The notes under the pieces were generated by a model, which was given only the letters and a program-made list of their open reading frames with translations, searched no databases and was not told the DNA's origin. A stretch of DNA of 64,000 nt, from positions 535,374-599,373 of the forward strand of contig NZ_WFLM01000003.1 of assembly GCF_009208775.1 (NCBI RefSeq). Direction: 5' to 3'. Positions 25,451-60,186 of the stretch are shown one piece after another. The translations under genes were made by a program, and so were the position numbers. Every line of letters begins with the position of its first letter. Within the stretch, counting starts at the first letter, position 1. This DNA is from Silvanigrella paludirubra. GTDB lineage: Bacteria > Bdellovibrionota_B > Oligoflexia > Silvanigrellales > Silvanigrellaceae.

Positions 25451-26692
25451 TTAAATTCCTTTAGCGTTTTTCCAATGCTCAAATAATATAGAATTTTGCT
25501 TTTGCATTCTTCTAATTAAATCTCTTGCTCTGGAATAACTTCGATTTAATTTCTTAAATTTTCTTCTTGCCCATCTTACGAGAGCAAAATTAACTGCACG
25601 AGAAATAGTATGAATTGCTAAAGAACCATAAAATTTACAGTAATAGTTAAGCCATCCACGTAACACTGGATTAATTGAACAAGCAATCTCTTCAATTTTT
25701 GCATGACTTAATAAATGGATTTTCCAATTACGTATCCGCCCTTGGATTATCTTTCTTACCTTGTCACCAATTGCAGGAGTAAAAGAAGTCATTATGTTTC
25801 CATATTTTGTTTTCACCATTCTTGGACGAAAAGTATACCCTAGAAAATCAAAAGCCGTTACTTTATAAGTTCCATTTCTTTGATTATCTTTACAGTATAT
25901 TATTTTCGTTTTAGTTGGATGTAAATCTAGAAAACATTCTGATAGCCGTTTCCTTACTGCGGAAAGAATTATATTAGCTTGGTTTTCTGATATGCAGTGA
26001 ATTACGAGGTCATCTGCGTATCTTGCAAATAGAACTCCTGGAAAATGAATTTCCATCCATTTATCAAAAGCATAATGCATGAATAAATTAGAGATCAATG
26101 GACTAATTACTCCACCCTGAGGCGTGCCTTTAGTTCTTTCTATTCTCAATCCATCAATATCTTCCAATGGGCTTTTTAACCATCTTTCGATATAAAGCAG
26201 TATCCATTTGCAATCCGTGTGTTTCTTTAAAGCTTTCATGAGCAATTCATGATTCATATTATCAAAGAAACCCTTAATATCCAGATCTATAACCCAATCA
26301 AATTTCCAGCATCTTTCACGAGTTTTACCGACTGCATCTAATGCTGATTTATTTGGTCGATAGCCATAGGAATCAGGATGAAAAATAGCCTCAATTTGTG
26401 GTTCAAGCATTCTCTTCAGAGTAGTTTGGGCAATTCTATCAGCAACTGTAGGGATTCCTAAAGTGCGTTTCCCTCCATCTTTCTTTGGTATTTCTACTTT
26501 TCGAACAGATGGCGGAAAGTAACTTCCCGACGACATACGATTCCAAAGCTTGTACAAATTGTCTTTGAGATTTGCTTCAAAGTCTTCTATAGATTGTTTA
26601 TCAATACCATGTGCTCCATGATTTTCTTTTACACTTTTCCATGCCTCCCATACAGTTGATTTAGAAACTTCAAATGACTTTGTAGTTGTCAT
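25451..26692 (-). CDS. ltrA: Group II intron reverse transcriptase/maturase
   Basis: A 413-residue LtrA-type protein. RT blocks are clear: IPKKDGGKRTLGIPTVADRI, GYRPNKSALDA, VIDLDIKGFFDNMNHELL, KGTPQGGVISPLISNL and the catalytic FARYADDLVIH. The maturase (GIIM) region GWLNYYCKFYG follows. The protein ends soon after, without an HNH endonuclease domain, so retrohoming would rely on nicked or single-stranded targets as in En-minus introns. I start it at ATG 26692, where GGGAGGAG lies just upstream; a longer frame to 26755 is intron RNA. It promotes splicing and reverse transcription of the surrounding intron. Confidence 0.95.
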   Translation of the reverse strand: MTTTKSFEVSKSTVWEAWKSVKENHGAHGIDKQSIEDFEANLKDNLYKLWNRMSSGSYFPPSVRKVEIPKKDGGKRTLGIPTVADRIAQTTLKRMLEPQIEAIFHPDSYGYRPNKSALDAVGKTRERCWKFDWVIDLDIKGFFDNMNHELLMKALKKHTDCKWILLYIERWLKSPLEDIDGLRIERTKGTPQGGVISPLISNLFMHYAFDKWMEIHFPGVLFARYADDLVIHCISENQANIILSAVRKRLSECFLDLHPTKTKIIYCKDNQRNGTYKVTAFDFLGYTFRPRMVKTKYGNIMTSFTPAIGDKVRKIIQGRIRNWKIHLLSHAKIEEIACSINPVLRGWLNYYCKFYGSLAIHTISRAVNFALVRWARRKFKKLNRSYSRARDLIRRMQKQNSILFEHWKNAKGI

Positions 26693-27247
26693 TAACTCCT
26701 CCCATTTCTGGTTGATTAAAGTAACCACTAAAACAACACAGCCCCTTCGCTCCACAAATGTTACTTTGCTTCTTAACTATTACGAGCTGTTCCGCCCCTG
26801 TGCTAAACATCTGTATTTAAGCCTTGTGGTGCTTCCACTTGAACTTCTACATTTACATTTTAACGACAGGTTCCCACGTTCCGTGCAGAAGCCTGAATCA
26901 AGTTCACGCCATCTCTGTGCCGGATGCCGCTTAAACAATAAACAGGTAACCTTTAAGCTTATCCCAAAGAACCGCTAGTCCTTGGTTTTGACATCATTTT
27001 ACGCTAACGACACCTCATCAATGGTTCATTTACATTCGTCTCCTTGATTCTTACCTGACACATTTACTGTGCCTTTTCTCTAACGCTCACTAAAATAACT
27101 CTTTATTATTGCAGCTTAGAGTGGTTTGAAGTCTTCTCCTGCAAGACGACTTCGAGAGGCCAACTCTCATCTTTCGCACAGCATTGCTGTAATTACCTTT
27201 CGGTATTCACCACATTCGTGGCACACTAACGGCGCGCATTCCTAGGA

Positions 27248-35263: not shown

Positions 35264-35287
35264 TAGACTGCTTTGCAGAAGCAGTCT
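35264..35287 (+). promoter_or_regulatory. Hairpin in the parA leader
   Basis: AGACTGCTT and AAGCAGTCT form a perfect 9-bp stem around TGCAG, 42 bp before the parA start. No T-run follows. It could be an operator for the ParA N-terminal helix-turn-helix or a leader structure. The GCAGTC core recurs in the palindromes around the HicB-like gene. Confidence 0.4.
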
Positions 35288-35329
35288 GTGTTAACGAAAC
35301 ATTTGTTAGCAGAGCAAAGGAGGATAAGG

Positions 35330-36310
35330 ATGTCTTTTGAGCAAGTAGATCAAAATAGGTATTGTATTACATCAATTGATTTTGCAGATTTATTAAGTAT
35401 TACAAGACAATCTGTTCAAACTATGCTCCAAAAATATGACCCTGAACGCTCAGCTTCAATTTCCCCCAAAAACCGCAAGCCAATTCTAGTCTATCCTTCT
35501 ATTTCAAGAAAAATTTTAATGGATAGAGGTTATAAATATCAGAAAAAGGCAATTGCTTTTCAATTATTAAAAGGTGGGGTTGGAAAAACAAGCCTAGCCA
35601 AAAACTTTGGTATCAGAGCTGCTGGATATGGTTATAAGGTTTTATTTATTGATATTGATCATCAATCAAATTTAACTTCATCTCTAGGTGTTTACTCTCA
35701 GCAATATTTAACTTTAATTGATTGGTTAGATAATAAAGTTTCGGATTTAAAAGAATTAATAGTTCCTGTATCAGAAAATATTTCCATAATACCTAGTTCT
35801 ATAAGAAATGCAGATTTGGCGGAGCAAATTCAAAGAAGGCAAAGAAATATAGCAAACTTATTTTCTGTTCCCTTTTCTGAGCTTAAAAAAAACTATGATT
35901 TAATTATTTGCGACTGTCCTCCTGCTATTGGACCGCATGTAGCGGCAATATATTTTGCTGTAGATACTGTTGTTGCTCCAGTAGTTCCAGATGAGTTTAG
36001 TGATGAAGGTCTTCAGGAAATGTTTTCTATTTGGAAACGTTTAGGTGCTGAATATTCAAAAAATATAAATATAAAAATTTTAATTAATAAGCATGATACT
36101 AGAGTTAAATCTTCTTGTGAAAAAGTTTTATCTTTGATGAGTCATTATAAGGACTTTATGTATCCCTTGTATGTTAGAAATTCTTCTGATTTTTTAACCG
36201 CGTCAAATCAAAAAAAGAGTCTTTGGGAACTTGGTAAATCAGCAGGAACTGCTTCAGAAGATGTTGACATGATAGTAAGATATGAGCTTGGTTTGGGTTT
36301 TAAAGAATAA
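35330..36310 (+). CDS. parA: ParA partition ATPase with N-terminal helix-turn-helix
   Basis: A 326-residue ParA. Residues 12-70 form a DNA-binding module (ITSIDFADLLSITRQSVQTM), then Walker A KGGVGKTS at 81-88, IDIDHQSNLTSSLG and DLIICDCPPAIGPHVAA. The N-terminal DNA-binding part makes it type Ia-like, able to autoregulate, in contrast to the short ParA at 1079-1993. The start at ATG 35330 is set by AAAGGAGG 6 bases upstream; a frame to 35273 runs through the leader hairpin. It is the first gene of a three-gene unit with a pGP6-D-like partner. Confidence 0.9.
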   Translation: MSFEQVDQNRYCITSIDFADLLSITRQSVQTMLQKYDPERSASISPKNRKPILVYPSISRKILMDRGYKYQKKAIAFQLLKGGVGKTSLAKNFGIRAAGYGYKVLFIDIDHQSNLTSSLGVYSQQYLTLIDWLDNKVSDLKELIVPVSENISIIPSSIRNADLAEQIQRRQRNIANLFSVPFSELKKNYDLIICDCPPAIGPHVAAIYFAVDTVVAPVVPDEFSDEGLQEMFSIWKRLGAEYSKNINIKILINKHDTRVKSSCEKVLSLMSHYKDFMYPLYVRNSSDFLTASNQKKSLWELGKSAGTASEDVDMIVRYELGLGFKE

Positions 36311-45855: not shown

Positions 45856-47496
45856 ATGTCTTTATATTTGCAAGATGTCTTTAGAGTTTCTTTATTAAGT
45901 ATTGTTTTTATTATATCAAGCTGCGGTAAAAAAGGTAGTTCAAATACAAATGATTCCACAAACGAAAGCACAAATACGACTGTTCTTCCTCAAGTCATAT
46001 TACCAAATGAAGATACCCTAACATTATATAAAAAAAATGGCAGCGAGAATACTTTTTATAAATCAACAAATCTAGGTGGGCTTGGAGTTGAAACTACTGA
46101 AGACAAACTTGATTTATATTCAGGAATACCTGTTCAAGTGAATTCTAATTATGATACAAATGTTACGATAGATATAATTGATAAATCAGATCAAGAATGT
46201 AAAAATATATTTTCATATTCAAAGTATAGTCCTCAAATCAATATAAATCTTCCAAATTTTATAAAACCTTTAACATGCAATTTAAGCATAAATTTAAATG
46301 CAAAGAGTATTAAAACTGGAGTAGTTGAGAATCCGTCGATTAGTAAAATTAAAGTTCGGTTTAATCTTACAATGAAAGCTTACATGTATAGTAATGACAA
46401 GAATTATTTGAAATTTTCAGGTCAGCAATATCCTGACGATTCAAAATTTCGTGAAATAGTAAGTCAGATTAAGTCAACTAGAAAAGTTTCAATAACAAAT
46501 TTAAGTTTAGATAATTTTAATTTCTTAGAAGGTGCAAAAGATTATATCCAGACGTTTGAAATTAGCAATTCTAGTATTGGTGATTACAATCTTTTTAAAG
46601 AATTCAAAATTTTAAAAGATGTATCTTTAAATAAGCTGAATATCAATGATTCAAGTGCAAAAAAAATACTAGGGATGTTACCGAAGCTTGATAGGTTATC
46701 AATTCGAGATAATTTGTTAACTAGTTTAAGAACTATAATTGATACAAAGCCTGATTTGATTTCTCTTGATGTATCTGCTAATCCGATACAAAATTTATCA
46801 GAAATTAAAGCTCTAGCTAAATTAAATACAGTTATATTGCGAAATATGAATCTAACAACGCTGCTTCCATTAAATAATGTAACACAAATAAAGGATCTTG
46901 ATATTTCTGAAAATCCACTAAGAAGATTTACGGATGTGGATACTGGATATTTATCTAGTTTAATAAATTTGGAAGCTTTAAATGTTTCCGTCGACCGAGA
47001 TAATCCAAATTCTACTCCAATTACCGATAAAGTTTTGAGCGACTATTTTAGATCTTTTGTTTTAGATAGTAAAACACAAAAACTTAAAAAGTTCATAGCA
47101 AGAAATAAATGGGAGAAAAAATATAAGGATTGTAATATGATAAATGATTTTGAAAGAAATATTGGCTCAATTGATTATTTAGAAAATATTGAATATTTAG
47201 ATTTACATGGAAATGGTTGTGTAGACTCATTAGGATTTTATTCTGGTTTAACTTCTCTTCCTTTTATGAACTATCGCAAAATAAAGTATTTGAATATTTC
47301 AGACGCTCCAGTGAGAGATTTTAATCGTGTTATTGATTGGCGAGATAATAATATTACTTTTGTATTTAATGAAACACCTTGGAATTATGATGCAGGGGTG
47401 TTCATGACAAAAGAATCTTGTTTATCAACGTTCCCTACAGGAAATAAAAATCGTCTTCAATGTGAAGGTCTAGATCCAAATTTCAAAAAAAATTAA
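45856..47496 (+). CDS. Leucine-rich-repeat lipoprotein A
   Basis: A 546-residue lipoprotein precursor with a lipobox IISSC (Cys near residue 23) followed by a Ser/Thr/Asn linker. Residues 50-190 form a domain shared with the next gene (GGLG...YSGIPVQV, C-x-N-IFSYSKY). Residues about 195-480 carry leucine-rich repeats (LDRLSIRDNLLTSL, LISLDVSANPIQNLSEI, IKDLDISENPLRRF). Residue Asn/Asp placement fits a bacterial LRR solenoid. As an outer-membrane or surface lipoprotein it could bind other proteins. AAAGGA precedes the ATG. It is paralogous to the gene at 47580. Confidence 0.8.
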   Translation: MSLYLQDVFRVSLLSIVFIISSCGKKGSSNTNDSTNESTNTTVLPQVILPNEDTLTLYKKNGSENTFYKSTNLGGLGVETTEDKLDLYSGIPVQVNSNYDTNVTIDIIDKSDQECKNIFSYSKYSPQININLPNFIKPLTCNLSINLNAKSIKTGVVENPSISKIKVRFNLTMKAYMYSNDKNYLKFSGQQYPDDSKFREIVSQIKSTRKVSITNLSLDNFNFLEGAKDYIQTFEISNSSIGDYNLFKEFKILKDVSLNKLNINDSSAKKILGMLPKLDRLSIRDNLLTSLRTIIDTKPDLISLDVSANPIQNLSEIKALAKLNTVILRNMNLTTLLPLNNVTQIKDLDISENPLRRFTDVDTGYLSSLINLEALNVSVDRDNPNSTPITDKVLSDYFRSFVLDSKTQKLKKFIARNKWEKKYKDCNMINDFERNIGSIDYLENIEYLDLHGNGCVDSLGFYSGLTSLPFMNYRKIKYLNISDAPVRDFNRVIDWRDNNITFVFNETPWNYDAGVFMTKESCLSTFPTGNKNRLQCEGLDPNFKKN

Positions 47497-47579
47497 AAGC
47501 ATGATTAATAAATAAAATCCAACATTTAAAATTAAATATTTTTTTTTCACATATTTTAGTTCTTTTCTAAGGAGGAAAA

Positions 47580-50018
47580 ATGATAAAGAATTATTATTTA
47601 TTTATTTTAGTTTTAGTTACAACAAAATTTCTTTTTGGCTGTGGAATTGAACCAAAAAATGATACAAATTCAAAAGATATAACGGTCTTAAAAACTCCGA
47701 AACTCAATATGTCTGCTTCAATACCGCTGGATCCCATTTATTCTTCTCCAACTCAAATAAAGCTTAATAAAAGTATTAATGTAAATACAGAATCTAAATC
47801 AGAAGTGATCTATAACGAAAGAGGAAATCTTTTTACAGCGACTAAAAATGGAGGGCTCGGTGCTGATTTTGATGACGAAAATAAATTAGCTCCATATTCA
47901 GGAATTCCTATTAAAATAGAAAAAAATGAAATTACAGGAGACCCAACTATTGAAATTTCTGCATCAGGTGTTGTTGGCTCTGCAAATGACGAAGCTTGTC
48001 CAAATTTATTTAACTATAATAAAGCAGAAAATGTTATTTCAATTAATACAAAAAACATTACTGCATTAACTATTTGTAAAGTGACTATTAATGCAAGCTC
48101 TGCTGAAGATAATAAAGTTTATACAGCATCAACAAGTTTTGAAATTGTTTTAAATTTAACTTTTGCAGGATATTATAGGTTAAATGATAAAGGCGCTTTA
48201 TATATTAAGAAATATTCAGGTATTAAAAGCTCTGATTTAGATGACTCTATTTTACGTATTTCCCAATATTTAAAAGATAAATCTAATCAAGATTTAAATT
48301 TAAATTATAACCCTGATTTAATCCCATTAGACGAGAAATTTACAACTTTCGATGCGATTACTGCTGTACAGTCTCTGACTTCACTTTATTTAGCAAATAC
48401 GAATTTAAATAATTTAAATGCAATAATAAATCTACCTAATTTAGTATTACTTGATATATCTGGAACTAAGGTTGACCCTAAAGATTTAAGACTTTTAGCA
48501 AAATTGCCTAACTTAAAAAAGTTATCTGTTCGTGATATGGATATTAAGGATATTTCTATTATAACAAAATACCTTCCAAATCTTGAAGAACTAGATATTT
48601 CTGAAAATACTAAAATTGAGAATTTAGATAATATCAAAAATCTTAAAAATTTAAGAATATTAAAAGCAAAAAGCATTGCTCTTAAGACTTTAAAGCAGTT
48701 AGAAAATCTTACACAAATTTCAGGTTTAGATATTTCAGGAAATGATTTTTCAAAAATTAAAAATGAAGAATCCAATATTTTAATAAATCTTTATAAATTA
48801 ACATCATTAAATATATCAAACTCTAAATTTCCTGATGAAGTCTTAAATAATTATTTTAATTCATTATCTGCAAGTCGTTTGATTTCTTTTATAGATAGAA
48901 ATAAATTTAATAGAAATACAATCGGAGATTGTAATTATAATAATTTTAGTTTAGTTAAGAATATTAAATATTTAATTAATTTAGAATATTTAGATTTAAG
49001 TGGAAATAGTTGTCAGATAGCAAATGATAATTATCAAGGTTTAACTTCGCTAGATTCATTTAAAAAAATGAGTCTTTTAAAAACATTAAACATTTCGAAT
49101 ACTGCCGTTTCAAATCTTGATGGAATAAAAAATTTAAACATTAATAACCTAATTTTAAATGAACCAGACGATAATGGTTTTTATAAACCTGAAAATGCAA
49201 TTATGGTTACAAAAAATCGTTGTAAGGAAGTTCTCGGACAAAGCCAAAAAGCGTGCAATTATCTTTTTGATGGATCGGAAAAATCAATTGAATTTAAAAC
49301 TCCAGGCGCACAATTTTGGACTGTTCCAGCTAACGTAACATCAGTCAAAATTGTAGGATGTTCTGGAGCAAATGGGGGAGCTGGCGGAGGCGGTGGTGGA
49401 GCCGCTGGGGCAATATTTGGTGGATCATGGGGTGGTAGCTCATGGGGAGGCAATGGAGGAAATGCAGGAGCTGTAAACGATGCAGGAGCTGTAGGAGGTG
49501 GTTCAGGGCAAGCAGGAAGACTTTGTTATGATCAAAACAATGAAACAGTTTGTGTTCCAACAGATAGGAACCATTTAGATTCTTGGCAACATGGCGGTTC
49601 AGGTGGATCTGGAGGTCTTGGAGTCATAACAAGCTTTGGAAATCAAAATTTTTCAAATCCATCACAATATATTTTGCGAGATCCAAATTTATCTTGTGTA
49701 GGTGGTGTTAGTGGTTCAGGTGGTCCTGGTGGGACAAACTCTCATATATCAGGTTTAATTGGTGGTCCTGGTGGCGCAGGAGCGACCCCTGCTTACTCGT
49801 ATGGATGGTCATCTAAAATTGAAACATACACGGTGCAGGTAACACCAGGTCAAACAATTCAAATTAATGTCGGTGCAGGAGGTTCTGGCGGCGGCGGCGG
49901 TGCAGGCGGATCAAAGCAAAATGGAGGTTATTATCGTGGCTCCCATGTTGGAAGTCCTGGTTCTGGTGGAAGTTCTGGCTCGGATGGATTTATAAAAATC
50001 TTTTACGAATCATTATAA
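47580..50018 (+). CDS. Leucine-rich-repeat lipoprotein B with Gly-rich C-terminal domain
   Basis: An 812-residue lipoprotein precursor (lipobox LFGC, Cys near residue 21; AAGGAGG ribosome binding site). Residues about 70-200 repeat the domain of the preceding gene (NGGLGADFDDENKLAPYSGI). LRR units span about 225-540 (LTSLYLANTNLNNLNAI, LVLLDISGTKV, LEELDISENTKIENL). From about 575 a second domain begins with FKTPGAQFWTVPANVTSVKI and continues as a Gly-rich region to VTPGQTIQINVGAGGSGGG, the pattern of the glycine-rich surface and phage-tail domain. This extension is absent from the paralogue, suggesting fusion after duplication. It is probably a surface adhesin; that is inferred. Confidence 0.8.
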   Translation: MIKNYYLFILVLVTTKFLFGCGIEPKNDTNSKDITVLKTPKLNMSASIPLDPIYSSPTQIKLNKSINVNTESKSEVIYNERGNLFTATKNGGLGADFDDENKLAPYSGIPIKIEKNEITGDPTIEISASGVVGSANDEACPNLFNYNKAENVISINTKNITALTICKVTINASSAEDNKVYTASTSFEIVLNLTFAGYYRLNDKGALYIKKYSGIKSSDLDDSILRISQYLKDKSNQDLNLNYNPDLIPLDEKFTTFDAITAVQSLTSLYLANTNLNNLNAIINLPNLVLLDISGTKVDPKDLRLLAKLPNLKKLSVRDMDIKDISIITKYLPNLEELDISENTKIENLDNIKNLKNLRILKAKSIALKTLKQLENLTQISGLDISGNDFSKIKNEESNILINLYKLTSLNISNSKFPDEVLNNYFNSLSASRLISFIDRNKFNRNTIGDCNYNNFSLVKNIKYLINLEYLDLSGNSCQIANDNYQGLTSLDSFKKMSLLKTLNISNTAVSNLDGIKNLNINNLILNEPDDNGFYKPENAIMVTKNRCKEVLGQSQKACNYLFDGSEKSIEFKTPGAQFWTVPANVTSVKIVGCSGANGGAGGGGGGAAGAIFGGSWGGSSWGGNGGNAGAVNDAGAVGGGSGQAGRLCYDQNNETVCVPTDRNHLDSWQHGGSGGSGGLGVITSFGNQNFSNPSQYILRDPNLSCVGGVSGSGGPGGTNSHISGLIGGPGGAGATPAYSYGWSSKIETYTVQVTPGQTIQINVGAGGSGGGGGAGGSKQNGGYYRGSHVGSPGSGGSSGSDGFIKIFYESL

Positions 50019-50676: not shown

Positions 50677-50922
50677 ATGAAGCAAAAAAAAGCAATAAAT
50701 GTAAATGAAATTAGAAAAAGAATAAATTTAAGTTTTTCATTAAAGGATACGGATGAATATAAAGTTATTTTGATATCACAATATCAAATGAAAATTAATA
50801 AAAAACAAACTCTTACAGGAGCAAGTCTTTTAAAATATCTAATTATAAAAGGACTAAATGAAATAAATAAAGAATTCGGAGAAGTGGATTTAGTTTTAAA
50901 AAAAGAAGGAGTTATGAAATGA
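50677..50922 (+). CDS. Small basic protein at the head of the secretion operon
   Basis: An 81-residue soluble protein with INVNEIRKRINLSFSLKDTD followed by LTGASLLKYLIIKGLNEINKEF. The strand-helix-helix pattern suggests a ribbon-helix-helix (Arc/MetJ-like) DNA-binding protein, which would suit an operon regulator, but it is not a confident match. Its stop overlaps the next start (ATGA), showing translational coupling. Confidence 0.55.
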   Translation: MKQKKAINVNEIRKRINLSFSLKDTDEYKVILISQYQMKINKKQTLTGASLLKYLIIKGLNEINKEFGEVDLVLKKEGVMK

Positions 50923-51668
50923 AAGTAAATTTTAAAATTACATTGTTATTATTATCTTTATTAAGTTTTGTAAATAATGCTTATGCTGAATGGTCGTATG
51001 CAGGAAAATTTTTAGCAACAACCGCTGCTGGCTGTGCTGTGGGTGGTGCTGGCTCTTATTTTTATGCAAATGGTGCAGGATATGACACACAACCTCGTGC
51101 GATTGTAACCTGGATGGGTGCGGCAACGGGATGCTTAACTGGGGCTTTGTTTAGCTATTTATTCTACGATGATGATAGCAAAACACTTGCACAAGTAAAC
51201 GAACAATTAACAGCAACAAATAATCGATTGCAACTAGAATTACAAAAAAGTGCAAACAATTCAAGTTTTGGTGTTCCCTTGCCAAGCGTTAAATTACCAG
51301 ATTTAAATTCAACATTAAATTCTTTTAAAATTGCTAAAATGGAATCTATTTATGAAATGGATGTGAAAACAAATCCTACAATTGCAGATTGTTCAGGAGA
51401 TTATTATTCCATTTGGCTTGATAGTAACGGCTATGCCCATTCAGCAAAAAAAGATGAAAGGCCACGGAATTTGTGGATACCAGTTTCACCAAACCTTGCC
51501 ATGTCATCATGGCAGTTTATTTATTCTTCAACGGGATGTTTTAAACCACATCCGTCATATGATTACTTTGAAAAAATTGTTCCAGGTTTAGCAAGAATGC
51601 TAGAAAATCAAATTGTAATTACAGCAAAAAATAATCCTCAAATTATAAAAGTTGGTGAAAGTAAGTAA
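50919..51668 (+). CDS. Secreted protein with glycine-zipper region, secretion operon
   Basis: A 249-residue precursor. A signal peptide ending AYA (residues 1-23) is followed by a Gly/Ala-rich hydrophobic pair (TTAAGCAVGGAGSYF and WMGAATGCLTGALFSYLF), a coiled coil (residues 88-110) and a C-terminal domain with three Cys. The glycine-zipper segments suggest membrane insertion, perhaps as an outer-membrane or VirB7-like component. It is translationally coupled to the gene before it. No exact family is recognised. Confidence 0.55.
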   Translation: MKVNFKITLLLLSLLSFVNNAYAEWSYAGKFLATTAAGCAVGGAGSYFYANGAGYDTQPRAIVTWMGAATGCLTGALFSYLFYDDDSKTLAQVNEQLTATNNRLQLELQKSANNSSFGVPLPSVKLPDLNSTLNSFKIAKMESIYEMDVKTNPTIADCSGDYYSIWLDSNGYAHSAKKDERPRNLWIPVSPNLAMSSWQFIYSSTGCFKPHPSYDYFEKIVPGLARMLENQIVITAKNNPQIIKVGESK

Positions 51669-51692: not shown

Positions 51693-52028
51693 ATGAAGAA
51701 AATAAATAAAATAATTATTACATTACTATTTATATTTTATCCTCAATTTTCTCATGCAGAAGGTCTTGGAGATATTACAGATAAAATAAAAGAACTAGCA
51801 GAAGATATTTTTGGAATGACGGATTCCGTAAGGGTTTTAGGATTGGCAATTCTTGTTTTTAGTATTGTAATTTGGGCATTAATCCCTCAAGTCAGAAAAA
51901 AATTATCAGATCATTGGGGGACAGTTGGAATTATATTCGTTCTGTGGGTTGTTATGATGTACTTTGGAGAGAATATAAAAACTGCATTAAATGATTCATT
52001 TGCCTTTCAAAAATTAATCAAGAAATAA
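51693..52028 (+). CDS. VirB2-like pilin candidate
   Basis: A 111-residue precursor with a signal peptide (residues 1-22, ending SHA) and two transmembrane helices (VLGLAILVFSIVIWALI and VGIIFVLWVVMMYFG) separated by a short basic loop, the size and topology of VirB2/TrbC pilins. It sits directly before the VirB3-VirB4 gene, the position of virB2 in Ti-type operons. The pilin role rests on topology and position. Confidence 0.6.
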   Translation: MKKINKIIITLLFIFYPQFSHAEGLGDITDKIKELAEDIFGMTDSVRVLGLAILVFSIVIWALIPQVRKKLSDHWGTVGIIFVLWVVMMYFGENIKTALNDSFAFQKLIKK

Positions 52029-52038
52029 GGATTAAAAT

Positions 52039-54777
52039 ATGGAGCACATGAGAGTAACAAGCTGGGAATTTAATCAACCCAATAAGTTTTTTTTTATGAA
52101 CGAAAAATCAATTTTAGTTGGTTTTATTTCATTACTTATTGGAATGTCTTTTTCTGACAGTATTTCAAATTTCTTTTTTAGTGATAGTACAATTAGAGTA
52201 ATAACTCCTTTTATATTTGGGTTTGTAGGATATAAAATGATGGAGTATTTTCTGAATGGAAAATATCCCTCACAAAGGATAGAGAGTATAAAAGGAACAA
52301 TAATTAGATATAAAGGAATCAATAAAATATGGTTAAATGATGAAAAGTTAGCAAATTATAAATTTTCTGGTGATATCAATTCCTTTTTTGATATTGAAGG
52401 CAACGAAATTTTTGGCTTTGAAATCACGTTATCACATGATAATTCATTAAAAACATTTCAAAACATCGTTGAAACGATTTTAAAAGATTTAAAACCACTG
52501 GATCAAATTCAATTTATACGTGTCAGCAAAGATTTAAACAAAGAAAGTCTTTTTGAAAAAAATCCAATTTTAAAAGAAAAAAAAGTAAAACAACAAAATT
52601 TTTATATTTTCTTTTCAATTTCAGATACAACTTTAAAATTAAAAGAAAGTATTAGTAATAAGGTAATTTTAGGAAGGAGGTTAACCCGATCCGAAATCTC
52701 AAATCTAGCAGAATATATATTTGCACCAAGAAGAAAACCTTCGGGAAAAGATTTACCTTTTTATTTAATGTCGATGTTTTTTAATGATAAATATTTAGAA
52801 ACAAGTTCGGATAATTTTGTTACAGCTTCTTCAAGTTTAGCAGCTTTACCAAAGCATTATGTTACAGAACAATTTAAAAATTTTTTAGATCCCATAAAAC
52901 AATTAGATAGTATCATATCTGTTAAATTTACGAAAAACATGAACGTGATGCAATCGTTTAAAGATACGCTCAATATCTTTAAATTTGAAAATCTTGATTT
53001 TAGAAAAAAATCAAATCAAAAAAAATTGGAAGCTTACGAACAACAAAAAATAGACGCATCTGAAGGGAAACAAACAAAATTATTTATGCATTTTTCTATA
53101 GTCGTTACTGGAAATAATAATGACGTTGAGAACGGTCTTCTAGAATTGGAAAATAATGCAGATGAAAGCGAGGTAAATTTTCGTCCTGTATTTGCAAGGG
53201 AAACTCATTTCTTAAAAGAAGTTTTGCTTTCTATCCTTCCAGGCAGTCGTAAAAATAATAGATTTAAAGAGCTTAAAGTAAACTCAACAGAAGAGGCATT
53301 TTTATATATCCCAAGCCCAACATTAGCAAATGATCTAACAGATGATAGAGCATTTCCGATGCGAACAATTGATAATGCTCTTTGGTTATTTCCTTATTAT
53401 AAACCTAAAACAACTTTAATTTGTGGTTTGCCTGGGTTTGGGAAATCCTTACTTGCCTCCTTATTCTTTTATGCAAATATTAAATCGTATCAAAATGGAT
53501 ACCCTGCTGCTGGCTTTGTTTTAGATCTTGGCGACTCATTTCTTTTTCTTGAAGATCAACTTGCTGATTTTATTTTGCAACTTAATTACGATAATAGTGT
53601 TGGTAAATATAAGCCTCTTGAAATTCATCCACTTGAACTATTTAAGCCTTTTGGAGACAGAATAAAATATGCCCAAAGGTTTTTGTGCAATATTATGGGA
53701 TTTGATCCAAGTGATAAAACACAAAGTTTTGCTACTGATGGGGAAGTTGTTAGTAAAAGTTTAGAAGAATTTTATCAGAATAATTTATCTAATCTCACAG
53801 ATTTTAAAAAAATATTGGTAGAAAAATTAGAAGTATTTTTTGCGAATTCAGTGCAAAAGCAAATAAAAATGTCGAATTGGGAAGAGTTTATAGCAAGACT
53901 AAATGTCTTTTGTAAAGGAGGTTTAAATGGTGAAGTTTTTGAACCAGAACATCCCAAATACAATGCGGATGATATAAAAAATGTTCGCTTTTTTTATGCA
54001 AGTAAAAACACCCAAACTAAAGATGATGTTTCTTTAATTTCTGCTTTTGCTTCTCTAGTGATTTCATTTGCCGATCTCATGGAAGAAAAATTTAAATCTG
54101 GCGGTGAAAATGATGCTTCAAACTTTTTTTATTGTGTGGATGAAATGCAGTGGTGGTCGGAATATATGCCTCACACTTGGTTTCGTGAAAGAGCAAATCA
54201 AAATAGAAAATTTGGGGCTTCTCTTTGGCTTATTACACAAAACCTTGAAAATTTAATTGTCCCACGTGCGGAACTGGAAAAGAAAACAATTTCAAGTCCG
54301 TACGCTTTGCTTGAAGCTGTTCAAAGATTCTTTTTTTATACACTCCCACAAAACAATGAAGTGGTTAAAATATTGGCAAAAGAATCCTTAAATGAAAAAG
54401 GAATTGCTTTAAAAGGGGGGCGTGTTGAAAAAATGCATCAAATCGCCAATCGTATTTCTGAAATAAAAAATATTATTTCAATCAAGCGTGATTCGCCAAT
54501 TAAATTAGATCGAATTGTTGGCTACTGTGACGAAGAACTAAATTTAATGCCTGTATGTGTAGATATAGATAAAGAACAACTCTGGGCATTTACAACCCAT
54601 GATGGGGCAAGGTCTATCCGTAAAAAAGCTTTGAAGTATTGCAGATTAACCTATACAGAAACATGTAAATTACTTGCAAAATGGCCTGGTCAAATTCCAG
54701 AAAATCAAGTTTCTAAACAATATGAAAATGACATTCTAAAAACTGCATTTGATTTAAAAGAAATTAGTCTTCAATAA
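52039..54777 (+). CDS. virB4: VirB3-VirB4 fusion ATPase of the type IV secretion system
   Basis: A 912-residue protein. The first 80 residues contain two closely spaced transmembrane helices (SILVGFISLLIGMSF and VITPFIFGFVGYKMM), as in VirB3/TraL. The rest is a VirB4/TraC ATPase with Walker A G463-L-P-G-F-G-K-S470 and Walker B CVDE (residues 699-702) followed by MQWWSEY, and the ITQNLENL region. VirB4 drives pilus assembly and substrate transfer at the inner membrane. Fusions of VirB3 to VirB4 are known in other systems. It starts 10 bp after the pilin gene. Confidence 0.9.
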   Translation: MEHMRVTSWEFNQPNKFFFMNEKSILVGFISLLIGMSFSDSISNFFFSDSTIRVITPFIFGFVGYKMMEYFLNGKYPSQRIESIKGTIIRYKGINKIWLNDEKLANYKFSGDINSFFDIEGNEIFGFEITLSHDNSLKTFQNIVETILKDLKPLDQIQFIRVSKDLNKESLFEKNPILKEKKVKQQNFYIFFSISDTTLKLKESISNKVILGRRLTRSEISNLAEYIFAPRRKPSGKDLPFYLMSMFFNDKYLETSSDNFVTASSSLAALPKHYVTEQFKNFLDPIKQLDSIISVKFTKNMNVMQSFKDTLNIFKFENLDFRKKSNQKKLEAYEQQKIDASEGKQTKLFMHFSIVVTGNNNDVENGLLELENNADESEVNFRPVFARETHFLKEVLLSILPGSRKNNRFKELKVNSTEEAFLYIPSPTLANDLTDDRAFPMRTIDNALWLFPYYKPKTTLICGLPGFGKSLLASLFFYANIKSYQNGYPAAGFVLDLGDSFLFLEDQLADFILQLNYDNSVGKYKPLEIHPLELFKPFGDRIKYAQRFLCNIMGFDPSDKTQSFATDGEVVSKSLEEFYQNNLSNLTDFKKILVEKLEVFFANSVQKQIKMSNWEEFIARLNVFCKGGLNGEVFEPEHPKYNADDIKNVRFFYASKNTQTKDDVSLISAFASLVISFADLMEEKFKSGGENDASNFFYCVDEMQWWSEYMPHTWFRERANQNRKFGASLWLITQNLENLIVPRAELEKKTISSPYALLEAVQRFFFYTLPQNNEVVKILAKESLNEKGIALKGGRVEKMHQIANRISEIKNIISIKRDSPIKLDRIVGYCDEELNLMPVCVDIDKEQLWAFTTHDGARSIRKKALKYCRLTYTETCKLLAKWPGQIPENQVSKQYENDILKTAFDLKEISLQ

Positions 54778-55740
54778 ATGAAGGGTTATGATATGAAATT
54801 AGATTCAGATTATATAATTAAAATAGAAGAAGATAGACAAAATAAGATTCAAAAAAAAAATAGAAGAAGGGTACTCATAGTTACTTTTTTAGTTTCTTCT
54901 TTTATCATGCAAAAATATTTGTTTGCTGTAAACCCTGCGGATACAAGTCTTCTTGCTTCAATTGAAGCAAAAGCAACCGCAATTGTTACTTATGCAAAAA
55001 ATATGCTTGATCTATATAACAAACAAATAGAAGCCGTAAATAATGTATTCAGAGCTGCGGATAAAACAAAACAATTCATGGAAATGATGATTTCTCCTGA
55101 AAAAAATATTTTTTACAAACAAGCAAAACAGCTCTCAGGATATATAAAAACATTTACACATAATAATGATGATCCATTTAAAATTAGACTTAAGAAATTT
55201 GATTTAGAAGCTCAAATACTTGTACAAAAATATGAAGAACTTTCTTATCAATATGACGTAACAGAAAGAGCTTGGAAAAGAGCAGCAAAACCTTTGCTAG
55301 ATAAAGATAAAATGAAGGAAATTAATAGAAATCCATCAAATAGTGCTTATATTTATGCAGCTAATCAAAATGTAAAAGATATGTACTATAGAACAAAAGG
55401 AATGGCTTATGAGCAGGAAATCCAAGAAATTGAAAATCAAATACTTTTAGATCGAATGACAGACAAATTTCCGATTGATAAATCGCCAGAAGAAGTTTTT
55501 TACGAATCAACAAAACATATGTCTATTAAAATTCAATTAGATCAATTAAAAATGATGAAAGAAATTCACTCAACTTTGGTTGCTATGTTGCAAGTTCAAT
55601 CAGGAAATTCAGTTCCAAATACCTCTTTTCCAAAACTTTCAGATTTCAAAAAGGCATATGAAAGAGCTTCCACTGGTTTGCCTTTGGATGACGATAAAAA
55701 GCCAAATGCTTCTTCTGTCTCATCAAATAATGGGAGATAA
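54778..55740 (+). CDS. VirB5-like secretion protein
   Basis: The frame starts right at the virB4 stop (ATG 54778), but ATG 54793 with GAAGGG upstream is an equally good start. One hydrophobic N-terminal segment (VLIVTFLVSSFIMQKYLFA) acts as signal or anchor, and the remainder is almost wholly helical (VTYAKNMLDLYNKQIEAVNN), as in VirB5/TraC minor pilins. Position after virB4 supports this. The C-terminal 25 residues are Ser/Asn-rich and disordered. Confidence 0.65.
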   Translation: MKGYDMKLDSDYIIKIEEDRQNKIQKKNRRRVLIVTFLVSSFIMQKYLFAVNPADTSLLASIEAKATAIVTYAKNMLDLYNKQIEAVNNVFRAADKTKQFMEMMISPEKNIFYKQAKQLSGYIKTFTHNNDDPFKIRLKKFDLEAQILVQKYEELSYQYDVTERAWKRAAKPLLDKDKMKEINRNPSNSAYIYAANQNVKDMYYRTKGMAYEQEIQEIENQILLDRMTDKFPIDKSPEEVFYESTKHMSIKIQLDQLKMMKEIHSTLVAMLQVQSGNSVPNTSFPKLSDFKKAYERASTGLPLDDDKKPNASSVSSNNGR

Positions 55741-55745
55741 AATAA

Positions 55746-56834
55746 ATGATTCTAGATGATATGTTTGAAACATCAACCTATCTTTGTTTGATAGGAGTAG
55801 CGCTTTATATTTCATATAAATATTTATATGGATTTTATAAAAGAGATGCCTTTATTGATATTATTAAATATTTTGGTGCTTTTACAGTTGGATATTTAAT
55901 CTTAAAGTCATTAATAAATATAAATCATACCATCTCTATTGAACAAGATACTGTGCAAGTGCAAGAGGGGATTTATCGAGTTGGTGCTTGGATTTTTCAT
56001 ATCGAATCTATTGCAAAAGCAGCAGAAAGTCTAACTCATGTGATTTCTAATTCCGCTGTAGGCTCTGCTACAGCCAGCGCTTCCATTTTACTTTCTGCAA
56101 TGATGTTCCATTCTCGAATGCTCATGGGAGGATGGAGAAGTCACAACGAAGTTGTGGAAGCTTTTTTTATTTCGCTTGTTACGTTTTTTTGTCTTTCCTA
56201 TTTTGATGTTTTTTTTAATACAATGACATCTTTATTAGATGAGTTTTCAAACATATTTTTTGGCGATGATCTCTACGCAAGATATGCGGAAACAATGGCG
56301 CCAATGAACATGTTATTAGTACAATGCAAAACAACAATATTAGAAGCTAGCGTTTGGGATTTTACAAAACTTATTTCATCGGTTGTTGCTGGTTTTTATA
56401 TTATTATTTTATTTATATTTTCTTGCGTAAATTTTATCTTATTTTCGATTCAATATTTGTGTTTAATGGGAATTCCTTTAGTTACCATCATTTTTACATT
56501 TATGTCGGGAATAGATCCATTTAGACCTATTAGAATAACTGGGGCAGTTGTATTACTTACGTTTTTATCAAAATTACAGATTTTTTTCCTTGCATCCATG
56601 TCAAGATGGACAATCCATGATTATTCAGGATCAATAACAGAAATGAACAATGATATTGTTGATGGTGCTGGCTTTGTTGGAGATAATTTTTTTCTGCTAT
56701 TAAAACTCGTTGGTGGTTTAGCTTTTTTTATCTTAATAATTGCTTTAGTTTCCTGGAAAATGTTTGACTTTATTTTAAACGTTATTGGTGTAAATCAGTT
56801 CGCACAATTAAAAAGTGTTATGAGAAAAGGATAA
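55746..56834 (+). CDS. VirB6/TrbL-like polytopic membrane protein
   Basis: A 362-residue protein with about seven to eight hydrophobic segments, a conserved-looking Gly/Ala region (SAVGSATASASILLSAMMF) and aromatic-rich cytoplasmic turns. The layout and the position between VirB5- and VirB8-like genes fit VirB6, the inner-membrane channel component. Families at this position are poorly conserved, so the call relies on topology and order. Confidence 0.65.
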   Translation: MILDDMFETSTYLCLIGVALYISYKYLYGFYKRDAFIDIIKYFGAFTVGYLILKSLININHTISIEQDTVQVQEGIYRVGAWIFHIESIAKAAESLTHVISNSAVGSATASASILLSAMMFHSRMLMGGWRSHNEVVEAFFISLVTFFCLSYFDVFFNTMTSLLDEFSNIFFGDDLYARYAETMAPMNMLLVQCKTTILEASVWDFTKLISSVVAGFYIIILFIFSCVNFILFSIQYLCLMGIPLVTIIFTFMSGIDPFRPIRITGAVVLLTFLSKLQIFFLASMSRWTIHDYSGSITEMNNDIVDGAGFVGDNFFLLLKLVGGLAFFILIIALVSWKMFDFILNVIGVNQFAQLKSVMRKG

Positions 56835-56840
56835 ATAAAT

Positions 56841-57470
56841 ATGCACTTGGATCATTTAGCTTATTTAGTTCAAAAAAGAATGTGGTTATTTTTTATTCCC
56901 TATGTCTTTATTTCACCAATATTTTATTATTATTTATTTAAAGCTCCTTCTACTCCTCCCGAAAAAATTATGCCGATTGCTTTTGTGGATGCAAATGGAA
57001 ACACTAGAAAGTTATATTGTGGAAAGGATGATGCAAACGATATTAATATGCTTGCTCTTTCTGAGAAAACAGGGAAAGAAATGTTGAACGTATTATTTTC
57101 TTTTCCTGCAAATAAAAAAGAAACAGCGGCACGAATTGCAACCTACTCTAAATATTTTTCTCAAGAAAGAGATTCATCTATTCAGAATTTTTTAAAGTCG
57201 CAAGCTGAAAAAACTTTATCCCTTGCAGATTCAGGAGCGAGTGCAACTTTTAATATAACCTATATTTCAGGTGGCTATGATCCTAAAAATAAAAACTATG
57301 TTGTGGTTTCTGATTTAACTCAAAAATTGGTTCGAAATGGAATAGAAACAACAAAGAAATTCTCGGTAGATATTTATTTAAAAATGACAGCAAAAGATAG
57401 AAAAGAAAGTGAAGGTATTATTTTAGAAATCACATCTGTTAAATTAAGGAACATTAAAAATGAAAGTTAA
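56841..57470 (+). CDS. VirB8/TraE-like secretion protein
   Basis: A 209-residue bitopic protein: a short cytoplasmic N-terminus, one transmembrane helix (MWLFFIPYVFISPIFYYYLF) and a periplasmic domain with helices then strands (YVVVSDLTQKLVRNG, KKFSVDIYLKMTAKDR), the nuclear-transport-factor-2-like layout of VirB8/TraE. It follows the VirB6-like gene by 6 bp and overlaps the next by 11 bp. Confidence 0.7.
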   Translation: MHLDHLAYLVQKRMWLFFIPYVFISPIFYYYLFKAPSTPPEKIMPIAFVDANGNTRKLYCGKDDANDINMLALSEKTGKEMLNVLFSFPANKKETAARIATYSKYFSQERDSSIQNFLKSQAEKTLSLADSGASATFNITYISGGYDPKNKNYVVVSDLTQKLVRNGIETTKKFSVDIYLKMTAKDRKESEGIILEITSVKLRNIKNES

Positions 57471-58341
57471 TATCGTTAATTTAAATCTAATTAAATATTT
57501 TATAATTTTAGTTACAACTTCCTTTTTCATTACTCAACAATCTTTTTCAGAATCACCAGAGGAAATAGAAGGAGTTCTTATTCCTAATAAAGGTTTTAAT
57601 TCCGTTATTCCTTTTGCAACAATGTATCTATCCAAAAAACAACCTCCAGTTATTAAAATAACAGTTGCGCAACCTACTTTGTTATTATTCCCTTTCCAGG
57701 TTTCAAATTGTTGGGGGAATAATAATGCTCTTTCAATTTCTGATGCAAATATTGTCAAAGATTCAACTGGGAAACCAACTAATTTTTCACAAGTCATTTT
57801 AAATGTAAAAGGTGAAGCAATAACAGATGGAAGCGCACCTGATCAAACAGCAATGATCTGTAAAAGTGTTGATAATAATGCATATCCTCTTGGTGTCGAA
57901 TTTGTTGAAGATAACCCATATTCAATCGTAAAGTTTCTCAAAAAACAAGAAAATTATGCTCTTTCACTAGATCAATTTGGATTTGAAAAAGGGTTTTCTG
58001 ATAAAGATAATAGTTCTTATTTCAAAAAAGATAAGAAGAATAAAAATCAGAAAGAAGAAAAACCTGAAGCAATACAAAATAAAATAATTGAAAAAAAGAT
58101 GGAAATAAATGAAGTTAGCCCAAGTTTTGTTAATAAGAATTTAGATAAAAAAAATATTCCATCTTCTTTTAAAGAGAAGAATTCTGAATCAATAAAATCT
58201 AGTTTAGAAAAAATGGGAATTTATTCAGATAATAAAATCCAAAACGATAATGTTACAAAAAGTGATAAAGAAAATAAAATGGAGTCCTTACTAAAAGCTG
58301 CGGGTATCATTGCTGAAAATAAAGGGAAGACAAATGAATAA
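57460..58341 (+). CDS. VirB9/TraK-like outer-membrane complex protein
   Basis: A 293-residue precursor with a signal peptide (residues about 5-30). The mature N-terminal region is beta-rich (PVIKITVAQPTLLLFPFQVS, SQVILNVKGEA), resembling the N-terminal domain of VirB9/TraK. The last 120 residues are a Lys/Asn/Glu-rich linker with no C-terminal VirB9 beta-sandwich visible, so the protein may be reduced or the tail may thread the complex. It is translationally coupled to both neighbours. Confidence 0.6.
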   Translation: MKVNIVNLNLIKYFIILVTTSFFITQQSFSESPEEIEGVLIPNKGFNSVIPFATMYLSKKQPPVIKITVAQPTLLLFPFQVSNCWGNNNALSISDANIVKDSTGKPTNFSQVILNVKGEAITDGSAPDQTAMICKSVDNNAYPLGVEFVEDNPYSIVKFLKKQENYALSLDQFGFEKGFSDKDNSSYFKKDKKNKNQKEEKPEAIQNKIIEKKMEINEVSPSFVNKNLDKKNIPSSFKEKNSESIKSSLEKMGIYSDNKIQNDNVTKSDKENKMESLLKAAGIIAENKGKTNE

Positions 58342-59434
58342 AAGAGTAAAAAATTATTTAATTTATGGTGGAGTTGGGCTTCTTGCTTTTGTGATAATTA
58401 AATCTCTTTCATCTTCAAAAAAAAGCTCTGATGTTTTAAATAAAGAACTAGATGGGCTGTCTTTCACTGAGCATTTAAGAGCAAATTCACATGACGTAAA
58501 TAAAAATACAGAACAACCTACGATGTCTGATACCGTAGTTGAAAGTAAAAATATAGATAAAGAAAAAAATCCAAAATTAGATAGTTGGTCAATGACCAAG
58601 CTTGTAGCATCAGGTAAAGTACCAGAAGAAATTGCAAGTAATATTACAGCAGTAAATGACAATGCTTTATTTGATGCAAATAAACCACCAACAGTTAAAC
58701 ATGCTGATATTAAAACATTCAGAAATTCAGACTCACAACAGCAAGAAAAAATTTATGAACAACCTAAAGCATCTGAATTACCCAAAACAAAATTTGCTCG
58801 TCAGTCTAAATTAAGCGGTCCAGTGACAACCCTTACAGGCATGGCGCAAACTACAGATAGAGGAGCCATGTTTAAAGCAGGAACTCGTGTGCTTGCTATT
58901 TTACCTGATAAGTTAACTATTACTTCAGGAGAATCTGTTTATACAAGTCTAACCGCTCTTGGTTCTGCGGATCAAAAAGTTCCAAACAATTTAACTTTTG
59001 TGGGAAAAGCAAAATTAAATAAATCCGAAAGACGAGTTGAAATTGCAATAGAAAATTGTGTGAACACAAAAGATTCGTCTCCACCAATGCCTTGCGTGGC
59101 TGTTGTGAAGGACATTTTAGGAGATAATGGACTTACTGGGAAAATTTACGATCCTTCGAACTGGCAACTTATTATAGCTTCTGTTGGGGCTTATATTAAT
59201 ACCTCTGTACTTTCTCAGCTAACAACTTCAGCAACACAGAATGGTCAAACAGTCGATCAAACTACATCAAATCAAATCAGACAAAGTATTGCTGGAACGG
59301 TTACGGCTGTTGCAAATCGTCTGATATCAAATTTGGATAAATCAGGCACGGAAATTGTTCTTGCGCAAGGAGCAATTGTTCAAATATTTTTCACTGAAAC
59401 AACTCAAACATGGAATGATCAAAATAACACATGA
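58334..59434 (+). CDS. virB10: VirB10/TraB-like scaffold protein
   Basis: A 366-residue protein starting at ATG 58334 with AGGGAAG upstream, overlapping the previous stop by 8 bp. One N-terminal transmembrane helix (NYLIYGGVGLLAFVIIKSL), a long polar linker, then the TrbI/VirB10 beta domain from about residue 180 (FKAGTRVLAILPDKLTI, LNKSERRVEIAIENCV, GLTGKIYDPSNWQ, SGTEIVLAQGAIVQIFFTE). VirB10 spans both membranes and senses energy from the inner-membrane ATPases. Confidence 0.85.
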   Translation: MNKRVKNYLIYGGVGLLAFVIIKSLSSSKKSSDVLNKELDGLSFTEHLRANSHDVNKNTEQPTMSDTVVESKNIDKEKNPKLDSWSMTKLVASGKVPEEIASNITAVNDNALFDANKPPTVKHADIKTFRNSDSQQQEKIYEQPKASELPKTKFARQSKLSGPVTTLTGMAQTTDRGAMFKAGTRVLAILPDKLTITSGESVYTSLTALGSADQKVPNNLTFVGKAKLNKSERRVEIAIENCVNTKDSSPPMPCVAVVKDILGDNGLTGKIYDPSNWQLIIASVGAYINTSVLSQLTTSATQNGQTVDQTTSNQIRQSIAGTVTAVANRLISNLDKSGTEIVLAQGAIVQIFFTETTQTWNDQNNT

Positions 59435-60186
59435 TAAAAAAATATATTATTATATTTATGATTGCGTTTCATTTTCATTTTAAAATTCAAGCGAAAATTG
59501 TTTTAACATCTCCAGCAGCAGGAGCATTAATTAAAGATTTTAATGGTGCTGATGTGCAAGGAATTTTAATTGATACAAGGCAAAGTAAACAAGTTTATTC
59601 TGCGATGGACGGAAAAGTTATCTATGCTGGTGAATTTTCTAAAATCCAACAAAATATGATCGTTATTCAATCAGAAACATATAAAATATATACAATTTAT
59701 CGCAATGTAAATCATTTTAAAATTAAGGAGGGAATGATTGTTAAATCTGGACACAACTTAGGCACTTCAAATAAGTATTTATTATTTGAAGTGAGAACGT
59801 TTGATGGCAAGGCTCAAGATCCTAATGATTATTTAACTATAAATAGTCACCATCAAAAGAAAAAAAAGATAAAAACGGATTTCTATCCAAAATTTGTGGA
59901 TTTTATGAAGCGCAATGGTTTTTTTCATCACGAAATTCCGACAATGTTTTGTATTGCTTCCTGGGAATCTTCGTTCAATCGGAATGCGGTAAATATTAAT
60001 AAAAATCGGACACAAGATACAGGTTTATTTCAAATCAATGATATTTGGTTAAAAAAATGCGACATGTCCAGAAAAGATTTATTTGATGCAACAAATAACG
60101 CTAGATGTGCAAAAGTTGTTTTAAGAAATCAAGGTTTTCGTGCATGGGTTACATATAATAAATATTCAAGATTTTGTAGTATCTAA
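59431..60186 (+). CDS. VirB1-like murein enzyme: degenerate M23 domain plus c-type-lysozyme-like domain
   Basis: A 251-residue secreted protein with a signal peptide (residues 1-21). Residues 45-137 have the beta-fold layout of LytM/M23 endopeptidases (YSAMDGKVIYAGEF, YTIYRNVNHFKIKEGMIVKSG, YLLFEVRTFDGKAQDPNDYL), but the zinc-binding HxH/GxH residues are missing. Residues 150-251 look like a c-type lysozyme: C174, E179 (CIASWESSFN), D196 (QDTGLFQIN) exactly 17 residues after Glu as in hen lysozyme, C210, C226 (RCAKVV), and WVTYNKYSRFC. It would open peptidoglycan for the secretion apparatus. Its start overlaps the virB10 stop (ATGA). Confidence 0.75.
   Translation: MIKKYIIIFMIAFHFHFKIQAKIVLTSPAAGALIKDFNGADVQGILIDTRQSKQVYSAMDGKVIYAGEFSKIQQNMIVIQSETYKIYTIYRNVNHFKIKEGMIVKSGHNLGTSNKYLLFEVRTFDGKAQDPNDYLTINSHHQKKKKIKTDFYPKFVDFMKRNGFFHHEIPTMFCIASWESSFNRNAVNINKNRTQDTGLFQINDIWLKKCDMSRKDLFDATNNARCAKVVLRNQGFRAWVTYNKYSRFCSI

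Follow-up and report, generated by a model that had tools for sequence, protein, structure and literature searches.

We asked which cell-wall enzyme serves the type IV secretion system (T4SS) encoded in the window, by which we mean the whole stretch of 64,000 nucleotides of Silvanigrella paludirubra DNA analysed here. VirB1-type enzymes make local peptidoglycan openings for machine assembly, as stated in a 2025 review (PMC12857230). The gene in the VirB1 position of this operon (59431-60186, plus strand) is one complete open reading frame with an ATG start, and its product of 251 amino acids combines a dead LytM/M23 domain with a c-type lysozyme domain, an assignment that we make with very high confidence. 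The gene belongs to the following block:

51693..52028, plus strand: small membrane protein in the pilin/VirB2 position (by position; syntenic homologue in the Pigmentibacter ruber plasmid, 24% identity; no family match).
52039..54777, plus strand: VirB4-position ATPase, 912 amino acids (Walker A motif; 47% identity in the P. ruber plasmid, 48% in the Spirobacillus cienkowskii T4SS).
54778..55740, plus strand: VirB5-position protein (position, syntenic homologues).
55746..56834, plus strand: VirB6-position polytopic membrane protein (position, syntenic homologues).
56841..57470, plus strand: VirB8-position protein with one N-terminal transmembrane segment (position, syntenic homologues).
57460..58341, plus strand: VirB9-position secreted protein (position, syntenic homologues).
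58310..59434, plus strand: VirB10/TrbI-like protein (PF03743 TrbI, 6.8e-7, below the cut-off).
59431..60186, plus strand: dead-M23/c-type lysozyme fusion gene, putative VirB1-position muramidase (open reading frame, Pfam, full-length relatives).

In sequence comparisons with known T4SS families, the machine genes gave no match besides the relaxase, the coupling protein and the sub-threshold TrbI match, and the VirB10-like proteins of P. ruber and S. cienkowskii likewise match TrbI below the cut-off. The VirB4-position ATPase has a weak TraC-type match (0.044), and no significant match was obtained for VirB4, VirB8 and VirB9 against PDB profiles or the Trb system of the same genome. The VirB4, VirB5, VirB6, VirB8 and VirB9 labels therefore rest on gene order, size and synteny. 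The contig carries, just downstream of the window, genes for a coupling protein of the TrwB type and for a TrwC relaxase. This gene content marks the element as conjugative, and the machine is a divergent conjugative T4SS. The preliminary description of this DNA had called the fusion gene the last of the operon. For the T4SS block in the window this holds, as the gene overlaps the stop of the VirB10/TrbI-like gene by 4 bases and is followed by an AT-rich gap of 184 bases; in the P. ruber plasmid it does not, the same-strand run going on into coupling protein and relaxase genes.

The fusion protein is laid out as follows:

59431..59493, plus strand: probable Sec signal peptide, residues 1-21, without a lipobox (hydrophobic N-terminus ending ...KIQA-KI, read from the sequence).
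59497..59844, plus strand: degenerate M23/LytM domain, about residues 23-138 (Pfam, AF2, Foldseek).
59554..59568, plus strand: position of the HxxxD zinc motif, here V42-Q-G-I-L46 (M23 alignment).
59698..59706, plus strand: position of the catalytic YxH motif, here Y90-R-N92 (M23 alignment).
59776..59784, plus strand: position of the HxH zinc motif, here Y116-L-L118 (M23 alignment).
59884..60183, plus strand: c-type lysozyme (GH22-like) domain, about residues 152-251 (PF00062, PDB sequence search, AF2, Foldseek).
59950..59952, plus strand: C174, equivalent of Cys30, predicted partner C249 (hen lysozyme alignment).
59965..59967, plus strand: E179, equivalent of the catalytic Glu35 of hen lysozyme (PDB and hen alignments; invariant in homologues).
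60016..60018, plus strand: D196, equivalent of Asp52 of hen lysozyme (alignments; Asp in all close homologues, His in G011).
60058..60060, plus strand: C210, equivalent of Cys76, predicted partner C226 (hen lysozyme alignment).
60106..60108, plus strand: C226, equivalent of Cys94 (hen lysozyme alignment).
60175..60177, plus strand: C249, equivalent of Cys115 (hen lysozyme alignment).

Past the signal peptide, no other hydrophobic stretch was seen on reading the sequence, and Pfam gave no CHAP match. The preliminary description had proposed a survey of related plasmids for the same fusion, and it does recur: plasmid pGTC16762-1 of P. ruber, from a human isolate in Japan (PMC11385108), shares both the gene content and the gene order, with a fusion of 45% identity. 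Among 58 genomes of the phylum, the full fusion is found in two, the window's own (433.6 bits) and a congeneric metagenome-assembled genome (MAG; 398 bits); the third-best score, 125 bits, comes from the lysozyme half alone. In the MAG (L014:2495-3241, minus strand; G001:C182 = JAIXXU010000036.1), an operon for a non-flagellar type III secretion system (T3SS) ends with the fusion, which follows SctV, SctT, SctJ, SctN and a TPR protein. S. cienkowskii has the machine operon on its chromosome as well, but that copy lacks the fusion gene, and a T4SS of this type can therefore do without the enzyme; relaxase and coupling protein genes are absent from the 17 kb read there (L051, G007:C1:1781000-1798000). 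PF00062 matches occurred in 11 of 383 related genomes, and the contig scan for relatives, which used a single peptide pattern, is a weak survey. Two long frames (L010, L013) considered as further fusions were rejected as stand-alone lipoprotein-like lysozymes, and a phage origin of the fusion was dropped after no match was found in 50,697 phage records and two weak partial ones in IMG/VR.

The C-terminal half matches PF00062 (Lys) at residues 162-246 with an E-value of 2.7e-12 and 47.5 bits against a cut-off of 27 bits, and it matches the SLT profile more weakly, with 1.1e-6 and 28.6 bits against that profile's own cut-off of 21.3. A PDB sequence search listed 60 matches, all lysozymes, with shrimp lysozyme at the top (5.4e-11, residues 154-244). 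AlphaFold (AF2) modelled this half with a pLDDT of 84-98 across most of the domain, and lysozyme C accounted for all 50 best Foldseek matches listed; silkworm lysozyme superposes with an rmsd of 1.4 Å and a target-normalised TM of 0.76, the upper value among the Foldseek matches listed. These results agree with the preliminary description, which had read the C-terminal half as c-type lysozyme-like rather than SLT and had assigned the catalytic pair to E179 and D196, residues that align with the Glu and Asp of lysozyme C. The residues it named also sit where it placed them (C174, E179, D196 in DTGLFQIN, W206, C210, C226-A-K and W239...C249), and neither this layout nor the profile matches are a product of chance.

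The whole fusion protein contains only four cysteines. Aligned with the textbook sequence of hen lysozyme, they keep exactly two of the four complete disulfide pairs (30-115 and 76-94). The protein thus shares with animal c-type lysozymes (GH22, PF00062) the fold, the Glu and Asp, two disulfide pairs and the AW...Y/W segment, and differs from them in lacking Cys6-Cys127 and Cys64-Cys80, in being bacterial and in its fusion to LytM. Because animal members have four conserved disulfides and two pairs are lost here, we term the domain GH22-like.

The N-terminal half matches Pfam M23 at residues 43-130 (E-value 1.1e-12, 48.4 bits). Compared with 34 viral M23 domains and two M23 proteins from the same genome, the domain has other residues at every zinc-ligand position and in place of the catalytic His, with a shortened loop ahead of HxH. 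Both sister fusions, that of the P. ruber plasmid and that of the T3SS operon, have lost HxxxD and HxH, and the T3SS fusion retains the His of YxH. An AlphaFold model of the whole protein built from six sequences was poor in this half, which an alignment of 36 sequences resolved (pLDDT 91); active viral M23 domains make up most of that alignment, which biases the model toward a LytM fold, whereas the Pfam M23 match is independent of it. The nearest solved structures in Foldseek were DipM (2.1e-8) and EnvC (5.7e-7), the LytM domain of PrgK (8S0U) was also listed, and NCBIfam gave weak matches to ActS and NlpD. The earlier reading of this half as LytM/M23 without zinc ligands therefore stands, and the domain is predicted to be unable to bind zinc and not to be a peptidase.

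We consider it probable that the protein is a periplasmic wall-opening enzyme of the conjugative T4SS, in which a c-type lysozyme does the cutting and a non-peptidase LytM half places or restrains it. The protein would be exported by Sec to the periplasm and fold with two disulfides, C174-C249 and C210-C226. Its lysozyme domain would then cleave the MurNAc-GlcNAc bond, with E179 as the acid and D196 as the second carboxylate, leaving a local gap in the wall through which the machine could be assembled. In the manner of DipM, EnvC and the PrgK LytM domain, the LytM half would probably bind peptidoglycan or a machine subunit and thereby position and restrain the lysozyme domain. We infer the VirB1 role from gene position and domains, and likewise infer the enzymatic activity, a hydrolase rather than a transglycosylase chemistry, and the function of the LytM half.

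For that last function, the closest analogue by logic is PrgK of the Enterococcus faecalis plasmid pCF10 (DELTA class), a VirB1-type protein of a conjugative T4SS that also carries a zinc-less LytM domain ahead of a muramidase. Its degenerate LytM and CHAP domains reduce muramidase activity in cis (PMC11323569). PrgK differs in being membrane-anchored and Gram-positive, in having CHAP as a third domain, and in a muramidase that resembles the phage tail lysozyme gp13 and not lysozyme c (PMC11323569); with 251 amino acids and two domains, the protein studied here departs from the DELTA-class layout of membrane anchor, LytM, muramidase and CHAP. DipM, EnvC, NlpD and ActS share the LytM fold without zinc ligands but act in trans on amidases or transglycosylases, whereas in the fusion the LytM half and the enzyme share one chain. 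A LytM half without a metal site that is also much less conserved than its partner is as expected for a binding or regulatory domain. Together with the PrgK precedent, these traits lead us to favour slightly, by analogy, a self-restraining or docking role.

Alternatively, the LytM half could be a mere peptidoglycan-binding anchor without effect on the lysozyme half. Its low conservation would fit such an anchor: the two T4SS fusions are 34% identical in the LytM half against 61% in the lysozyme half, and the T4SS and T3SS fusions 20% against 46%. The LytM domain of PrgK, too, may bind peptidoglycan (PMC11323569). We nevertheless hold a mere anchor to be somewhat unlikely, as the same combination regulates activity in PrgK and the closest fold neighbours, DipM and EnvC, work by protein contact (PMC11323569 for DipM).

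The preliminary description had also stated that no standard VirB1 is known to have this pair of domains. PrgK, with its degenerate LytM, muramidase and CHAP domains, is a precedent, and so is phi29 gp13, a tail enzyme that joins lysozyme-like and LytM domains on one chain in reversed order and with a phage-type lysozyme fold (PMC11323569). What does set the present protein apart is a lysozyme-c domain in place of an SLT domain or a phage-type muramidase. VirB1/TrbN and other GAMMA-class proteins are likewise Sec-exported wall enzymes encoded inside T4SS operons, and differ in being SLT/GH23 enzymes. The excerpted text of the 2025 review places all known Gram-negative VirB1 homologues in one class, for which it names neither a LytM nor a lysozyme-c domain (PMC12857230), and our literature search of open-licence papers found no description of a dead-LytM/lysozyme-c fusion. 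Each domain is known individually; what differs here is the soluble two-domain protein in a Gram-negative bacterium, its use of lysozyme c rather than an SLT or phage-type muramidase, and the occurrence of one fusion in both a T4SS and a T3SS. An enzyme that joins lysozyme c to a dead LytM domain of its own and is shared with a T3SS operon would be a second Gram-negative solution to the VirB1 task, and its likeness to the Gram-positive PrgK would represent convergence. The protein would also offer a small, soluble two-domain system for studying in-cis control of a wall enzyme by a degenerate LytM domain, and with it the small group of lysozyme-c-like proteins in bacteria gains members associated with T4SS and T3SS.

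The distribution suggests that one wall-opening module is used by two unrelated secretion machines, the T4SS and the T3SS. We propose, tentatively and at somewhat less than even probability, that one ancestral dead-LytM/lysozyme-c fusion became an exchangeable module that moved between conjugative T4SS and T3SS, with the LytM half as adaptor or brake. If this is true, close bacterial kin of animal lysozyme c would be employed in machine assembly, and natural inhibitors of c-type lysozymes (Ivy, MliC) present in recipients might act on the fusion. Instead, the fusions of the two systems could have originated independently. The tree of lysozyme halves leaves room for this, since it backs a single fusion clade weakly (67/87), loses that clade once a single long row is omitted, and has an alternative that is not rejected (p-AU 0.23); the lysozyme halves are thus compatible with one origin without proving it. 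Against independent origins, the three LytM halves form one group (99/97, the T3SS one being flagged for its long branch), and domain order, length and linker are common to all three proteins. We therefore consider two separate fusion events unlikely.

The lysozyme halves also bear on whether the cutting domain is of the c-type at all, the alternative being a lytic transglycosylase of family GH23, akin to IagB, EtgA and VirB1, whose resemblance to lysozyme c is confined to the surroundings of the active site. EtgA, IagB and IpgF of T3SS are machine-specific wall enzymes with Glu and Asp spaced as in lysozyme; EtgA, whose active site has features in common with lysozyme, opens the wall for a T3SS and is stimulated by the inner rod protein EscI (PMC5073101). 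They differ from the fusion in being single-domain proteins with a GH23-like C-terminal part, other cysteines and no LytM half. In favour of a GH23 assignment, the SLT_3 profile (5.1e-10) scores above its cut-off as SLT does, and the best NCBIfam match of the lysozyme half is IagB, though far below its cut-off; as the SLT profile lies above its own cut-off, transglycosylase chemistry could still apply. The E-(17)-D spacing, which the preliminary description had taken as a mark of the c-type layout, is likewise present in GH23 enzymes of the IagB type (for example L036, VESGFNPSARNVNRNGSED). Being common to GH22 and GH23, the spacing by itself is no proof of a c-type enzyme, and we dropped it as such. 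A control with the same spacing, an IagB-like enzyme from a Burkholderia plasmid, found EtgA as its best match (1.8e-20) and animal lysozyme over only about 35 residues. The cysteines are the diagnostic part, and those of the fusion pair as in lysozyme c, IagB/EtgA-type enzymes having a different pair; the AYNA/AYNAG-type (AYNxG-type) motif of those enzymes is absent, with AWVTYNK in its place. PF00062 outscores SLT, the fold sides with lysozyme c, and in the tree the bacterial lysozyme domains join animal lysozyme C, separate from IagB/EtgA (100/100). We thus judge a GH23 enzyme to be very unlikely.

That the fusion is operon cargo, namely a lysozyme effector that is secreted or translocated to act on bacteria or a host, and not an assembly enzyme, appears highly improbable: c-type lysozymes are antibacterial elsewhere, the Bdellovibrio lysozyme DslA attacks the prey wall (PMC7511926), and no Ivy or MliC inhibitor is recognisable in the family, leaving no detected restraint on the lysozyme, but the N-terminus is of the Sec type, the gene is tightly coupled to the VirB10-like gene, no immunity-like gene was noticed beside it on inspection, and the same protein ends a T3SS structural operon, the expected place for assembly enzymes of the IagB/EtgA type.

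Lysozyme-c proteins without a LytM half also occur in the surveyed genomes. Apart from the MAG, the seven genomes of the genus, including that of the window, all have a stand-alone lysozyme of about 160 amino acids, and this c-type-lysozyme-like protein is chromosomal and genus-wide (L017:6301-6774, L004, L006, L007, L008, L018). Lipoprotein-like lysozyme-c proteins were seen in other Bdellovibrionota and in a Myxococcales MAG (L015:5680-6378, L016:3869-4594, L025:9848-10519), and the animal lysozymes fall among them in the tree, with weak support (83/67).

The surroundings of the T4SS operon yielded further observations. A plasmid-type ParA gene lies at 35273-36310, with other replication- and partition-like genes up to 41020, ahead of the conjugation block, and an open reading frame at 25451-26755 reads as a group II intron-type reverse transcriptase. 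The element may be a plasmid or may be integrated in the 680-kb contig C4, which has an integrase at C4:624277; neither the window nor L157 yielded a tRNA. At the start of the T4SS operon, 50919-51668 encodes a secreted protein of 249 amino acids that is conserved at 46% in the same place in P. ruber and S. cienkowskii. Upstream of the T4SS, two LRR lipoprotein genes (45856-50018; L035:133-4189 in the P. ruber plasmid), the second with a C-terminal glycine-rich domain, are 74-78% identical between the window and the P. ruber plasmid. The element is thereby a mosaic, this surface-lipoprotein pair being far more conserved than the T4SS proteins (24-47%). Besides the T4SS of the window, the same genome has a Trb-like one, encoded on a 44-kb contig (L069, G000:C1), with an ordinary SLT enzyme (ESSGN...YNTG) on the opposite strand.
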